A stretch of DNA of 64,000 bases, taken from assembly GCF_023712425.1 (NCBI RefSeq), contig NZ_JAMAYG010000002.1, positions 372,001 through 436,000 of the forward strand, given 5' to 3'. Source of the DNA: Rothia sp. P100 (lineage in GTDB: Bacteria > Actinomycetota > Actinomycetes > Actinomycetales > Micrococcaceae). Below the pieces are notes generated by a model. It saw only the letters and a list, made by a program, of their open reading frames with translations, had not been told where the DNA came from and did no database searches. This document shows positions 27,397 through 32,824 of this stretch, piece after piece. Positions within the stretch are counted from its first letter, which is position 1; each line of letters opens with the position of its first letter. The translations under genes were made by a program, and so were the position numbers.

Positions 27397-27436
27397 TGTG
27401 TTTTCTAAAAAACTTTTTTATGTCATACTTTGTTGC

Positions 27437-27784
27437 ATGGGAGTAAGTAGAACCTCGGCGCCGGCAACGCGTTTCAGTGAGCTAGTAAATGAAGAACTTC
27501 GTGCCCTTATGGGGCGACGGGGTATGACGCAGCAGCAGCTTGCTGAGGCATTAGGCATAAGTCAAAGTAGAGTCTCAAAGATGATTTTCAAGAACGAATC
27601 ATCTCTATCTGTTTCTCACTTAGACATGGCATGTAACGCGTTGAATGATGATCCTTCAGAGGTGCTGCGGCGAGCTGAGCGAGCTCTTGCTGCAGAACAG
27701 AACTCGCGCCAGTCGTCCTTCGGGCTTGCGGCTAAGCATGACCCTGGTGTCGGCGCGGACATTAACGATGAAGACTACTTCTAA
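27437..27784 (+). CDS. XRE-family immunity repressor
   Basis: A 115-residue protein with an XRE HTH (MTQQQLAEALGISQSRVSKMIFKNESSLSVSHLDMACNAL) and an acidic C-terminal tail. Start ATG at 27437; a longer frame to 27398 includes the promoter. CATACT at 27424-27429 lies seven bases before the ATG, with a weak TTTTCT 17 bases further up, so the message is probably leaderless. It is transcribed away from the Cro-like gene and followed by an ImmA-type metallopeptidase, so it is the likely lysogeny repressor. No LexA/S24-type self-cleavage domain is present. Confidence 0.82.
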   Translation: MGVSRTSAPATRFSELVNEELRALMGRRGMTQQQLAEALGISQSRVSKMIFKNESSLSVSHLDMACNALNDDPSEVLRRAERALAAEQNSRQSSFGLAAKHDPGVGADINDEDYF

Positions 27785-27831: not shown

Positions 27832-28281
27832 GTGAGCCCCCGCATGGCCTATGACCCATACCAGCACGCAGATCACCTAGGGCTCACCGTGCATTACGGC
27901 AACCCAGGCACGGGGCTTCTAGGGCTTTACATCCATAGGAGCCGCGCTATCATCCTGCGTGCCGGCCTATCAGCCCGCGTAGAGCGCTGCGCCCTAGCCC
28001 ATGAGATCGTGCACGCCGAATACGAGGACGAGCCGACCAGCGACGGCGCATGGTCAGCCAAACGTGAGGCCAGGTGCGACCGTATCGCAGCAGAACGCCT
28101 CATCGACCGCGAAGCCCTGCTCAGCACGGCGAGCGCGTATGAGGATGTGGGGGAGTGGGCGGCTGCTCTGGAGGTTACTGGGTGGATTCTAGGTGCTTAT
28201 CTGGCTGCCCACCCGTTGCCGGTGAGATATGGGTCTATGGCTCAGCAGAACCATCAGCCTGGCTTCATCATGTCCTCCTAA
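27832..28281 (+). CDS. ImmA/IrrE-family metallopeptidase
   Basis: A 149-residue protein with zinc peptidase motif CALAHEIVHAEY (HExxH) near residue 57 and a downstream acidic/CDRIAAERL helix, as in ImmA/IrrE. It lies 47 bases after the repressor gene in the same direction. In ICEBs1 and many phages the paired peptidase cleaves the repressor to induce the element; the same role is inferred here. Start is GTG at 27832 or ATG at 27844; neither has an ideal ribosome site. Confidence 0.82.
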   Translation: MSPRMAYDPYQHADHLGLTVHYGNPGTGLLGLYIHRSRAIILRAGLSARVERCALAHEIVHAEYEDEPTSDGAWSAKREARCDRIAAERLIDREALLSTASAYEDVGEWAAALEVTGWILGAYLAAHPLPVRYGSMAQQNHQPGFIMSS

Positions 28282-28406: not shown

Positions 28407-29354
28407 ATGACCTCCACTCCCTTTACCGCTGAGCAAATCCTAGCGGCTTTCAGCAACGGATCTGATAGCTCGCGCATCAACGCTATGGCCCAGGAAATAG
28501 CCGGTTTGGCGAACGAAAATGCTGCACTCAAAAGAGAAATAGCGGACCTTCAGAGCAGGCCGATTCCAACCGTAGCTGACCTTGCTAATGAAGAAGCTGC
28601 ACGGATCCTTGACGAAGCTAGAGCCCAGACGTTCGCTGAAGCTAATAAGACCTGGATTGAGGGTCATGAGCGGTGGCGTGAAGCGCATGATTTGGGTACC
28701 TTCATCCCGGCCCCAATCAGTGCTGCAGCGATCGACCTCAGCGAAGCACTTTCACAAATCGGTGAGTTCTGGCCGGTCGACCGTAGGCTCCGCCTGTTTG
28801 GCGATGCGCACGAGGCCGCAATCTCAGTGGGCAAAAAGGAAACAGTCGACTCTTATACCCAACTGCTAAGCCAGCCTGCCAACGGGGAAAGCGTCACCAA
28901 GACAATGCAAGTGAAGCTCGTAGCTGCACGAACCTCCAACGAATCAGAGGCATCGTTCACCAAACTTGTATTCGTCTATGCTGATGGGATGTTGCTGGGT
29001 GGGCTAACCCCGTCCTTCTCGGTGTCCTACGTTCCCTTCCTGGACGCCATGCACGCCATGGGGATCGACGTCTACGCCAATGCCCAGCTCACACTCACAG
29101 CGAGCGCTGCTAAAGGGGCATTGAGCAACAAGGGCCTTGTTGGCTTGCCTGACCGATTTGAGATGCGAGATACGTTGCCTCAAATTAGGCGCATCGCAAA
29201 AGCCTTGACCAGTGCCTATGCAACCAATACAGCTATAGATCAAGGTACCGAAGCATGGCTGAATGGCTTCGGAAAGATCATGGCTGAAACAAGGGAAGAG
29301 GAAGCGCAAGCACGGGAACTGGCCAAAGAGCGGCGTTTGATGATGGGTAGATAG
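28407..29354 (+). CDS. unknown 315-residue lysogeny-region protein
   Basis: A cytoplasmic-type protein with no recognised family. Residues 25-50 form a short coiled coil (AGLANENAALKREIADLQSRP). The middle and C-terminal part are mixed alpha/beta (FWPVDRRLRLFGDAHEAAI, ASFTKLVFVYADGMLLGGLTPSFSVSYVPFLDAMHAMGID, ALTSAYATNTAIDQGTEAWLNGFG), ending in a charged helix. It is an independent unit: its own upstream region (TATACC/TATCTT boxes close to the ATG, possibly leaderless) and its own terminator. This is typical of a gene expressed from the prophage, for example for immunity or defence, but that function is only inferred from location. Confidence 0.68.
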   Translation: MTSTPFTAEQILAAFSNGSDSSRINAMAQEIAGLANENAALKREIADLQSRPIPTVADLANEEAARILDEARAQTFAEANKTWIEGHERWREAHDLGTFIPAPISAAAIDLSEALSQIGEFWPVDRRLRLFGDAHEAAISVGKKETVDSYTQLLSQPANGESVTKTMQVKLVAARTSNESEASFTKLVFVYADGMLLGGLTPSFSVSYVPFLDAMHAMGIDVYANAQLTLTASAAKGALSNKGLVGLPDRFEMRDTLPQIRRIAKALTSAYATNTAIDQGTEAWLNGFGKIMAETREEEAQARELAKERRLMMGR

Positions 29355-29387: not shown

Positions 29388-29468
29388 ATTTTGTGCGTAT
29401 TGCTCACCAATTAGCCCACAAGGTTCTAGACTTAAGTAACCCCGCACACAACGAGCATGGAGAATACC

Positions 29469-29933
29469 GTGAAGAAAACACTCGCCCTCACCGCTGCAGC
29501 CGCCCTCATGCTAGGACTGACCGCATGCGGCGCCTCAGAAGACAGCAATACTGGTTCACCGGCCGCCCAAGCCGAAACCTCATCCGCCCCGGCCGTAGAG
29601 GAAGCCCCTTCACTTGATGGAACCTGGAAGCAGACCAACTCCGAATCTGAAGACTCCTACCAAGAAGCTACCATCGAAGGTGACACCATCACCGTCAACT
29701 GGGTATCTAACAACGGCGATACCAAGTCCCTCTACTGGGTCGGAACCTTCCCAGCGCCCACAGAAGGTGGCAAGCAAACCATCACATCCGAAGGCGATGT
29801 CGACCAGATGAGCACGGCGATGATGGCTTCCACCGACGAAACTAAGGAATTCACCATCGATAACGGTGAACTCTCATACGAGGTCGGCATGATGGGCACC
29901 ACCACTGTGGTTCGCCTGGAAAAGCAGGACTAA
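29469..29933 (+). CDS. prophage-encoded lipoprotein
   Basis: A 154-residue protein from GTG at 29469, with GGAG six bases upstream; an ATG at 29457 is less well placed. A type II signal peptide (MKKTLALTAAAALMLG) ends in lipobox LTAC, so it is anchored outside the membrane. The mature part has a serine/proline/glutamate linker and then a beta-rich domain (SLDGTWKQTNSE, ATIEGDTITVNWVSNNGDTKSLYWVGTF). A single lipoprotein with its own terminator in the lysogeny region is a good candidate for superinfection exclusion, as known for lipoproteins of some Gram-positive phages; here this is inference. Confidence 0.78.
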   Translation: MKKTLALTAAAALMLGLTACGASEDSNTGSPAAQAETSSAPAVEEAPSLDGTWKQTNSESEDSYQEATIEGDTITVNWVSNNGDTKSLYWVGTFPAPTEGGKQTITSEGDVDQMSTAMMASTDETKEFTIDNGELSYEVGMMGTTTVVRLEKQD

Positions 29934-29969
29934 CACCCAACCTTCCTGGTAGCTCGCGAGACAACAGAA

Positions 29970-30000
29970 AAGCCCCGGCACTGATGAGGTGCCGGGGCTT
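29970..30000. terminator. bidirectional terminator between convergent units
   Basis: Perfect 12-base stem AAGCCCCGGCAC/GTGCCGGGGCTT, with T-rich sequence on both sides (ATTTGTTT rightward, TTTTCTGTT leftward). It serves the lipoprotein gene and the converging DUF3037 gene. Confidence 0.85.
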
Positions 30001-30006
30001 ATTTGT

Positions 30007-30867
30007 TTACACAGCGATAAAAGCAAGCTGCTGTTCAAGCTGGCCAGCATGGGCTTCAAGCCAATCTGGTTTGACTATCTCTATGTTGTAATCAACCCAG
30101 TCCGCAGTAACCCTATTGTACATTTGGCGTTGTTTATCAGTCCGTGGTTCATCAACTAAAACAGTAATCGGAACATGAGGAGATACATCTAATGTAGTAG
30201 CGCCCTTGCTGAGATGACCACCAGTTTTACGAAGCTTGGACATCGAAAATGTCCACGCCTGAACACGATTTTCTAGATTGCTATCAGCCCTGCTCTGGAA
30301 GGAAAATGTACTGTTAATTTCCAGAATCTCATCCGTGGCAACCGCCAAATCAAGACGCTCAACTGCATTATGAACAGAAAGGGTTGGCCTAATCAAAGTA
30401 TGCTCTTTCAATCGAGCATAAGTGCTACTTGTATAGTAGCTGCGTGCCTGTTCGCGAAGCCTACTCACCAGGTGAGGTCTTGTGGAACTTTCACGGTGAA
30501 TCAACCTCTGGTAGAGGGCATCAGCAGCTACCTGTGCCGACTCATCAACAATTTGCCCGGGCGCATCAATTCGCATTACACCGTAATTCTGTCGACGGGC
30601 GCGCTCTACTACCTGGCGAAAATCCCTGTGAGTTCCCAGGGAGAGCGCGTCCTCAGAAGCAAAAAGAGCGATTTCGTCTTCCAGAGCATCTAAGGCCTGC
30701 AGAGCATACTGGGGGTTGCCGCCTAGCTGAGGAATTTCGGATACTGAATTTACAAAACGGTAAGCGTGGTCGCCGTGTTCTTTACCTACCACGATGACAC
30801 CGATACCAGCTGTATCTGGACGTAACGAATCAGGTACATAGCGAACTATCCAATAGTTATAAAGCAC
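30007..30867 (-). CDS. DUF3037 domain protein
   Basis: A 286-residue protein starting at GTG 30867, eight bases after AAAGGAGG; the frame extends further up to 30957 without a site. The N-terminus YNYWIVRYVPDSLRPDTAGIGVIVVG is the DUF3037 signature. Later parts are charged (LEDEIALFASEDALSLGTHRDFR, STRPHLVSRLREQARSYYTSSTYARLKEHTLI). It lies 16 bases after a HipA-like kinase gene; this pairing recurs in bacteria as far as I recall. The biochemical role is unknown; a toxin-antitoxin or defence function is inferred. Confidence 0.8.
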   Translation of the reverse strand: MLYNYWIVRYVPDSLRPDTAGIGVIVVGKEHGDHAYRFVNSVSEIPQLGGNPQYALQALDALEDEIALFASEDALSLGTHRDFRQVVERARRQNYGVMRIDAPGQIVDESAQVAADALYQRLIHRESSTRPHLVSRLREQARSYYTSSTYARLKEHTLIRPTLSVHNAVERLDLAVATDEILEINSTFSFQSRADSNLENRVQAWTFSMSKLRKTGGHLSKGATTLDVSPHVPITVLVDEPRTDKQRQMYNRVTADWVDYNIEIVKPDWLEAHAGQLEQQLAFIAV

Positions 30868-30883
30868 CAGAAATCCCTCCTTT

Positions 30884-31660
30884 CTAGAGACTATATCTTT
30901 GTTTATAGGATTCAAGTATCTCAATAGTGTAAGGCACGCGGCTAACCGCGTAGTCAACCATCTGCATGATTTCCGACTCCTGAAAATCCCACTCTGATGG
31001 AATCATAGAGGGAATGTACCTCACAGTAGACCCAGTAAGCGCTGTCAGGCTAGATTTAGCTTGCTCCCAATCGTCGACTGGGATTCGACCTCTTAAAGCT
31101 GGAAGAGGTTCGTAGAGCGTCATTCCCTCACTAAAATCACGGGCACCCTCCCATGAGCCAAACCAATAACCGTGATCAAGAGAATAAATCTTGGCGTCAG
31201 CTTCAAGGTCATAAATCAGCTGGGTGTCATCTGCGTTGCAGAGGTGCCACAGTGCAATAAGCAGTGGTATACGACTGTAGTTACCGTCTCTGTCAGCCCA
31301 GATGATTTGATCGTTGGGTGAGTTGTTGGGAATGTGGAGAGACCCGAACATCGGCAAGCTGGAAAAGAATTGGTTTGAACCCAGAACCCTACCAGTGAAG
31401 TCTGAAGGAACATATATGACAGCCCAGTCTCGGACTGGCGCCCCGATTATTTTCCCAATTTCGCTGGCTACAATTTCATTAATTACTGTAATGCCTTGAG
31501 CATCATGGTCATATTTCTTGCACCAAAAATCTCTTCCATCCGTTGTGGTTGCAAGAAGCGGATGCTCACCAGTGTTGGCGACCTCTTTCACGAAGTGGAT
31601 GGTCGCCTGGTCTGGGCGGCGCATTTGCAGGACGGGGGCTAATGAATCGTTCATGGGCAT
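30884..31660 (-). CDS. HipA-like kinase domain protein
   Basis: A 258-residue protein starting at the ATG at 31660 (or 31654). HipA-like features: HPLLATTTDGRDFWCKKY with a candidate ATP-binding lysine, the NEIVASEIGKIIGAPV helix, and a catalytic-type loop HLCNADDTQLIYD followed by AKIYSLDHGYWFG. The usual NxDRHxxN motif is altered (NADDTQLI), so the second metal-binding Asn is absent; activity is uncertain. It lies upstream of the DUF3037 gene and downstream of an XRE gene on the same strand. It lacks a separate HipB-type partner unless the XRE gene plays that part. Confidence 0.78.
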   Translation of the reverse strand: MPMNDSLAPVLQMRRPDQATIHFVKEVANTGEHPLLATTTDGRDFWCKKYDHDAQGITVINEIVASEIGKIIGAPVRDWAVIYVPSDFTGRVLGSNQFFSSLPMFGSLHIPNNSPNDQIIWADRDGNYSRIPLLIALWHLCNADDTQLIYDLEADAKIYSLDHGYWFGSWEGARDFSEGMTLYEPLPALRGRIPVDDWEQAKSSLTALTGSTVRYIPSMIPSEWDFQESEIMQMVDYAVSRVPYTIEILESYKQRYSL

Positions 31661-31708
31661 TCGGGGTTTTAGGTGACAATATTTTCTTAACTCTATGATT
31701 AAACACAG

Positions 31709-31745
31709 AGAAGCCTCGGCGACCAACACGGTTGCCGAGGCTTCT
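31709..31745. terminator. hairpin between XRE gene and HipA-like gene
   Basis: Perfect 12-base arms (AGAAGCCTCGGC / GCCGAGGCTTCT) with a 13-base loop, 20 bases beyond the XRE gene stop. The T-run is weak on both strands, so termination may be partial. The HipA-like gene probably has its own promoter after it. Confidence 0.65.
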
Positions 31746-31764
31746 GCTTTACCTGCCTGTGGGC

Positions 31765-32067
31765 TTATTTACCCGCTGGAGCTACCTGGATGCCGTCAGG
31801 GGTCCACTCGACCGTGAGCTTGCCATGCAGGGCGCTAGGGGAGGCGCTGGGGTCCTCTGAGTCTGCATAGAACCATTCGATAGGTACTCCAGTAGCTTCA
31901 GCGAGCGCTTGGAGGTTTTTTTCGGTGGGGGTGTGGCTGCCGTTTTCCCAACGTCCGAGGGTTTGGCGGGTGGTGTCTAGCTTTTGTGCTAGTTCGTCTT
32001 GTTTGAGCCCTGCGTGTTCGCGGGCTTTTCGGATGCGGTCTTGGAGTGTCCAGGTGGGGAGTGGCAT
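31765..32067 (-). CDS. XRE-family HTH regulator near the right prophage end
   Basis: A 100-residue protein with a classical XRE HTH (RIRKAREHAGLKQDELAQKLDTTRQTLGRWENGSHTPTEKNLQALAEATGVPIEWFY) and a short C-terminal beta-type tail (LTVEWTPDGIQVAP). It is separate from the repressor at 27437 and has its own direct-repeat operator region upstream. It may regulate itself and the HipA-like/DUF3037 pair that follows on the same strand, as HipB does for HipA. Confidence 0.85.
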   Translation of the reverse strand: MPLPTWTLQDRIRKAREHAGLKQDELAQKLDTTRQTLGRWENGSHTPTEKNLQALAEATGVPIEWFYADSEDPSASPSALHGKLTVEWTPDGIQVAPAGK

Positions 32068-32115
32068 GGTTTTAGTTTACCTGGGTTGTTACATATGTTC
32101 TATGTTTTAGTGGTT

Positions 32116-32177
32116 TTACATTGCTTATGTTCCTTATGTAATGTATCGTGAACCTTGAAACGTTACTTATGCAATGT
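32116..32177. promoter_or_regulatory. direct-repeat operator region of the second XRE gene
   Basis: GTTCCTTATGTAATGT (32129-32144) and GTTACTTATGCAATGT (32162-32177) are 33 bp apart (three helical turns) and share 14 of 16 bases. The first copy also forms an inverted repeat with TTACAT at 32116-32121. The region is A+T-rich and lies 50-110 bases upstream of the XRE start, as expected for autoregulation. Confidence 0.7.
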
Positions 32178-32764: not shown

Positions 32765-32786
32765 TTCAAGTCCCCCCTCGCGCACA
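32765..32786 (+). other. prophage right attachment site (attR), 3' end of tRNA-Leu
   Basis: TTCAAGT followed by CCCCCCTCGCGCACA equals the T loop, T-stem 3' arm, acceptor 3' strand (CTCGCGC) and discriminator A of an actinobacterial tRNA-Leu. The T-stem 5' arm is disrupted and no GCGCGAG acceptor 5' strand occurs upstream, so only the 3' part of a tRNA is present. Phages integrating at tRNA 3' ends leave exactly this remnant at the distal end. The intact tRNA should lie at the other prophage end, outside this window. Confidence 0.8.
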
Positions 32787-32792
32787 GAGATC

Positions 32793-32824
32793 ATCCCCGG
32801 TTCATAAGAACCGGGGATTTTTTT
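32793..32824 (+). terminator. intrinsic terminator downstream of the tRNA remnant
   Basis: Perfect 11-base stem ATCCCCGGTTC/GAACCGGGGAT, loop ATAA, then TTTTTT. It was probably the native terminator of the tRNA-Leu gene, left on the chromosomal side by prophage integration. Confidence 0.9.

Follow-up and report, generated by a model that had tools for sequence, protein, structure and literature searches.

A HipA-fold kinase with a clade-specific loop and a long DUF3037 protein form a candidate HipAD-like toxin-antitoxin pair at the right end of a Rothia prophage

We analyzed a 64,000-nucleotide stretch of the 2.40-Mb genome of Rothia sp. P100 (hereafter the window), in which three minus-strand genes lie in the order XRE regulator, HipA_2-like kinase, and a gene for a 286-aa DUF3037 protein. 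All three open reading frames were confirmed, and Pfam matches to HTH_3, HipA_2 and DUF3037 bear out the gene order and the family assignments proposed in a first-pass annotation. The locus comprises the following features:

About 29968-30002, no strand assigned: bidirectional terminator hairpin, common to the DUF3037 gene and a convergent lipoprotein gene (from sequence)
30007-30867, minus strand: long DUF3037 protein, 286 aa (Pfam DUF3037, PADLOC, hhalign, fold)
30875-30884: SD-like site GAAAGGAGGG ahead of the DUF3037 gene, at the kinase stop codon
30884-31654, minus strand: HipA_2-like kinase, 256 aa (P0004), of the DxQxxY loop clade (Pfam, PHROG, hhalign, fold, tree)
31709-31745, no strand assigned: strong inverted repeat in the XRE-kinase gap, resembling a terminator, no T run on the minus strand (sequence, gap fold)
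31765-32067, minus strand: XRE/HTH_3 regulator, 100 aa (P0003; Pfam HTH_3, 3.3e-19)
32133-32177, no strand assigned: direct-repeat pair CTTATGTAATG / CTTATGCAATG upstream of the XRE gene, possible operator (from sequence)
32765-32823, plus strand: attR, consisting of a 21-base tRNA-Leu 3' core (32765-32785) and the terminator after the core

The kinase gene has alternative starts at 31660 and 31729, and no SD-like site was seen in the sequence upstream of it. As described previously, 16 bases separate its stop codon (30886-30884) from the GTG start of the DUF3037 gene (30867), and the bidirectional hairpin closes the unit. The XRE-kinase gap of 110 bases folds with -39 kcal/mol on the minus strand; given this very stable hairpin, a common XRE/kinase transcript is doubtful, and the XRE gene is probably transcribed separately. 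Direct-repeat operators had been assigned to the regulator, and we indeed find one 11-base pair (CTTATGTAATG / CTTATGCAATG, 33 bases apart), but 13 of 200 shuffled sequences contain as many, which makes this a weak candidate for an XRE operator. The regulator matches the HipB model weakly (15 bits against a cut-off of 79), and its DNA shows a 73% match to a prophage remnant in a second genome of the genus (G059). The GC content is 0.48 in the kinase and DUF3037 genes and 0.58 in the XRE gene, compared with 0.55 in the prophage part (window positions 1-30000) and 0.52 in the chromosomal part (32916-64000).

Within the prophage, the small lipoprotein-like gene (29457-29933, plus strand), which converges on the DUF3037 gene and shares its terminator, has no Pfam family and is a candidate for lysogenic conversion, for example superinfection exclusion. 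A 315-aa protein (28407-29354, plus strand) adjoins an ImmA/IrrE-like gene (27832-28281) and an HTH gene (27398-27784). It has no Pfam match over the cut-off, no PHROG and no NCBIfam match, and among PADLOC models only OloB was returned (E 0.038).

The location near the right end of a prophage, also part of the first-pass annotation, is borne out by phage gene families (terminase, portal, major head, tape measure, anti-repressor, endolysin and integrase), by the att sites and by an empty site. attL lies in tRNA-Leu(GAG), next to the integrase gene, in the stretch left of the window, about 40.8 kb from attR by coordinates. In G717, a close relative of the window's genome (98% in UppP), both flanks join at the 21-base tRNA-Leu core. 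The att cores at both ends and this empty site place the XRE/kinase/DUF3037 unit inside the prophage, about 0.7 kb from attR. We had considered that the pair might belong to the chromosomal flank, as G059 carries the same locus and no prophage; this was rejected since attR is located beyond the unit in the window, and an attR-like copy is likewise located beyond it in G059. The integration site has tandem tRNA-Leu(GAG) copies in the window's genome (L041:11627-12036), in G717 and in G727 (L047, L048); the sequences after the two G727 copies resemble each other and differ from the terminator found in G717, as if elements came and went.

The kinase matches Pfam HipA_2 in its N-terminal part only (28.6 bits; cut-off 27) and phrog_3162 at 1e-22. 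A profile of its clade aligns with the HipAD kinase profile at E 4.5e-18 (hhalign; our HipAD profiles consist of HipA and HipD of Escherichia phage PhiR5_1 and three relatives), and the PADLOC model PDC-M66A gave no match to P0004 up to E 10. The altered loop highlighted in the first-pass annotation (NADDTQLI) is real and clade-wide, with its register shifted by one: the clade-invariant Asp is D143, the second D of NADDTQ. From D143 the window loop reads D-T-Q-L-I-Y, and the clade pattern is D-x-Q-x-x-[YF] (DxQ clade). Since the whole clade has this loop, we rejected decay of the window copy as its explanation.

We compared 47 kinases, 10 from the DxQ clade, 32 canonical and 5 labeled HipAD. 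K46, D143 (the catalytic Asp) and D160 (the Asp of DHG) are kept in all 47, including the ten clade members. A Gln at position +2 is found in 10/10 DxQ kinases versus one of the other 37, and position +5 is Tyr or Phe throughout the clade. All 37 remaining kinases, canonical and HipAD-labeled alike, carry NxDR and an Asn further downstream; in the window kinase, the stretch from D143 to D160 contains no Asn. In HipA and in protein kinases, magnesium is bound by the Asn located five residues past the catalytic Asp; kinases of the Fam20 type function with an altered loop. The Asn substitution was taken in the first-pass annotation as a sign of altered chemistry, which may be the case, although the catalytic Asp and the DHG Asp remain. 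We know of no experiment on any DxQ-clade member.

In the tree, DxQ and canonical kinases fall on opposite sides of a branch with 100/99 support, at a split where the program warns of long branches meeting. The five HipAD-labeled rows form no single clade; the Peribacillus kinase (P0017) stands apart from the other four, has no annotated DUF3037 gene beside it and was dropped as a HipAD member. The canonical set consists of the 30 best-scoring actinobacterial loci, hence not a random sample of the 169 matching genomes (of 296 in the class) with phrog_3162-type kinases, plus two cyanobacterial loci, and its loop is NxDR[ST]xxNxN in 32/32. Used as a query, a canonical kinase matches 2 phage and 19 plasmid records, of which 2 phage and 4 plasmid records were examined. 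The structural model of the window kinase (mean pLDDT 68.8, with low confidence in the loop region) resembles PI4KII (Z 11.9), CtkA (11.8), Fam20, CotH, HipA (10.5) and HipT (9.7); Foldseek alone returned weak hits (best E 0.015).

The 286-aa partner matches Pfam DUF3037 (23.9 bits; cut-off 22.6) and PADLOC PDC-M66B (6.1e-8), and its clade profile aligns with the HipD profile at E 4.6e-11 (hhalign). No Pfam DUF1829 match was found in this protein. A model calculated from 9 rows (mean pLDDT 81.2, pTM 0.52) predicts, with modest scores, a PD-(D/E)XK-like nuclease fold for residues 131-286. The top matches are BstEII (VIA, Z 9.1, r.m.s.d. 3.5, 129 residues aligned), VC1899 (8.5), PspGI (8.4), Can2 (8.3) and Cdn1 (8.1), followed further down by XPF, Mus81 and NucC, and by a few GTPase rows with Z under 6. 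With this aligner, best Z values of 7-8 are usual where there is no clear match; the top values here lie slightly above, and one superfamily dominates, as the named nuclease-type proteins share the PD-(D/E)XK fold. D173 is invariant in 9/9 rows. The [DE]xK part reads EVK in 4/9 rows, all cyanobacterial, and EVD in Calothrix; the planctomycete row and the three actinobacterial ones have a degenerate motif, and in the window protein the catalytic D...[DE]xK pattern is replaced by D173...QSR.

The DxQ clade comprises ten loci from Micrococcaceae, cyanobacteria and a planctomycete, each with a long DUF3037 gene immediately after the kinase gene. An XRE match within 1.5 kb upstream of the kinase is present in two of them (the window and G059), both at the same att site. 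The regulator is not a conserved part of the module, and we do not retain it as the standing third component that had been proposed. Kinase matches occur in 3 of 61 genomes of the family, the window's own included, and long window-type DUF3037 proteins in 3 of 35 genomes of the genus (its own, G059 and G732). The clade is rare: at 1e-5, profile A1 matched only the window's own genome among 396 genomes from the phylum. Scanning species genomes with a profile yielded 8 loci, three of them already found, and a scan of genome contigs with P0002 alone returned no relative. PDC-M66B matches 9 of 244 cyanobacterial genomes and, among the matches listed, one spans nearly the whole profile. Phage sequences gave no tblastn match to P0002, P0006, P0001, P0010 or P0009; on plasmids, P0006 and P0009 matched that of Calothrix only and P0001 none. 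Scans of viral contigs with A1, A3, A4 and A5 returned one contig each time, a Tersicoccus prophage.

Five of the ten loci have a mobile context: the window, G059, G732, Tersicoccus and the Calothrix plasmid. The G059 pair is flanked by tRNA-Leu and an attR-like copy. Parts of the right arm are 67-73% similar at the DNA level, and inspection by eye showed no phage structural genes in the locus; on these grounds we read it as a 4.5-kb prophage remnant. G732 ('Curtobacterium sp. S6') has a phage-integrase gene just downstream of the pair, which is perhaps carried on a small integrase-borne island. At this locus (L046:8071-11985) an unassigned ORF of 200 aa extends over the start of the kinase gene, and between the DUF3037 and integrase genes an ImmA/IrrE-like fragment is seen by eye. 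We rejected a reading of the overlapping ORF as XRE, since neither Pfam HTH families nor the three HTH proteins of the window match it. The Tersicoccus sp. Bi-70 pair is preceded by endolysin-like and holin-like genes, and an integrase-like ORF is located further on (all judged by eye); IMG/VR classes the stretch as viral. On the mobilizable plasmid of Calothrix, the pair comes after a gene annotated as integrase. The HipA_2/DUF3037 neighborhoods thus show a pair that is co-conserved in the clade and often found on mobile elements, and the first-pass reading survives its own refutation test.

Two relatives have defense genes as neighbors. The Hydrococcus pair is located inside DISARM, between drmB/drmA and drmMI (L053:545-12464), and an Oscillatoriales genome encodes PD-T4-6 and an NsnB/AriA-like ATPase within 6 kb of the pair. 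No defense family was detected at 1e-5 for the two proteins tested at each of the Oscillatoriaceae and planctomycete pairs, or for the window's 315-aa neighbor; this search covered single proteins picked by hand, mostly by size, at the Hydrococcus, Oscillatoriales, Oscillatoriaceae, planctomycete and window loci. Two of the ten loci (G059 and Microcoleus) have a frame-broken kinase next to an open DUF3037 gene, as in decaying modules or assembly errors.

Defense by HipAD-type pairs has been shown only recently, in relatives of the window pair. According to PMC12548924, the HipA/DUF3037 pair of Retron-Sda1, named PDC-M66 in PADLOC, defends against Bas51 without the RT, the ncRNA or the HTH gene; deletion of HipA abolishes Bas51 defense, and deletion of DUF3037 is toxic. 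PMC13092281 (DefensePredictor 2026) describes DS-6, renamed HipAD and attributed to Brenes and Laub 2025, as a kinase paired with a DUF3037/DUF1829 protein; defense is abolished when DS-6A carries a catalytic mutation, and AlphaFold3 predicts an A-B complex. Neither trigger nor target of HipAD-type pairs is given in the available portions of PMC12548924 and PMC13092281. 'HipD' together with 'antitoxin' was not found in the papers searched; in Escherichia phage PhiR5_1, a gene pair located between cI and Kil-Gam-Bet is annotated as HipA toxin and HipD antitoxin.

On balance we consider it probable that the prophage carries a HipAD-like toxin-antitoxin pair of the DxQ clade, which protects the lysogen as an abortive-infection module. 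The HipA-fold kinase would be the toxin, and the DUF3037 protein, whose gene has a visible ribosome site and probably shares a message with the kinase gene, would bind and silence the kinase. During superinfection the DUF3037 protein may sense phage DNA, perhaps via its nuclease-fold C-terminal domain, or may be titrated or lost; the freed kinase would then modify a host target, and growth would stop before the phage spreads. That the window copy acts like HipAD, and its trigger and target, we infer by analogy. The earlier view of a defense or toxin-antitoxin module agrees with published tests of such pairs (PMC12548924, PMC13092281) for the kinase and DUF3037, although not in its XRE part. 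Against a HipAD-like pair stand the missing Asn downstream of the catalytic Asp, the +2 Gln, the lack of a PDC-M66A match, the two frame-broken kinases among ten and the two loci at which the tested neighbors gave no defense family. The DxQ module most likely works like HipAD; we file it as a sister clade because it lacks two HipAD features, the PDC-M66A match and the loop.

A bolder proposal, which we hold to be unlikely, is that the DxQ clade is a defense system of its own. It would combine a toxin of kinase fold, whose active site has been rebuilt for another chemistry or nucleotide, with a PD-(D/E)XK-fold antitoxin that reads phage DNA or its modification and acts as a nuclease in the cyanobacterial branch and as a sensor only in the actinobacterial one. 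We also consider it unlikely that phosphotransfer has been lost altogether, leaving the HipA-fold protein as a nucleotide-binding regulator or scaffold and the nuclease-fold DUF3037 protein as the active part. The absent Asn, the clade-wide +2 Gln and +5 Tyr/Phe, and the partner's predicted fold with D...EVK intact in 4/9 rows would fit such a pseudokinase, but Lys46, Asp143 and Asp160 are kept in 10/10, the nuclease motif of the window protein is degenerate (QSR), and conservation of the new loop argues for a kept function. Rather improbable, too, is an active enzyme that transfers a non-phosphate group (e.g. AMP) to protein under the same toxin-antitoxin logic. This is consistent with a clade-wide loop change that spares the ATP-site Lys and both Asp residues and with fold matches to PI4KII, CtkA, Fam20, CotH and HipA at Z 10.5-11.9, but the loop region is modeled with low confidence. 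We give similarly little weight to addiction only, in which the pair would stabilize the prophage and give no phage defense: the pair adjoins attR and survives with the right arm in the G059 remnant, but two relatives have defense-gene neighborhoods, and the HipAD and Retron-Sda1 pairs defend. Very improbable is a housekeeping chromosomal HipA_2/DUF3037 pair picked up by chance. The commonness of phrog_3162-type kinases in the class would fit it, but all 32 canonical kinases examined (30 best-scoring and two cyanobacterial) have the canonical loop and group in another clade, and the window-type DUF3037 protein is confined to 3/35 genus genomes, its own included.

The DxQ pair compares with known systems as follows. 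Like HipAD (DS-6; the lambdoid-phage HipA/HipD), it consists of a kinase gene and then a long DUF3037 gene, both homologous by profile, and it is located in a phage, the PhiR5_1 pair lying beside lysogeny genes. It differs from HipAD in the loop (DTQLIY versus DRTLTDKGGNVN), in DHG versus DHN, and in a DUF3037 protein that has no DUF1829 match, and from HipAD/PDC-M66 in a kinase that has neither a PDC-M66A match nor NxDR with the downstream Asn. The Retron-Sda1 pair, compared here by its published description, is likewise a two-gene kinase and DUF3037 unit; its nearby HTH gene is dispensable, and the window XRE gene may be so too. Unlike the window pair, it resides in a retron operon, and its DUF3037 C terminus is described as resembling the retron type III-A1 DNA-binding protein. 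Canonical chromosomal HipA_2/short DUF3037 loci share the Pfam families and, in the loci examined, the gene order, whereas their kinases have NxDR[ST]xxNxN (32/32) and belong to another clade, and their DUF3037 proteins are short in the loci examined. HipBA and HipBST share the HipA kinase fold and, in the window, a nearby XRE gene; they differ in that the partner here is DUF3037 and that XRE is not conserved with the pair. Actinobacterial prophages and a DISARM locus are among the places where the pair is found, and the DxQ kinase escapes the PADLOC kinase model. In the DxQ clade the constant parts (kinase fold, DUF3037 and gene order) can be told apart from an altered active site and a candidate sensor with a nuclease fold, which makes the chemistry and the sensing step directly testable. 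Taken together, the kinase/DUF3037 arrangement is one already described (HipAD/DS-6/PDC-M66), and the part that differs is the kinase clade.
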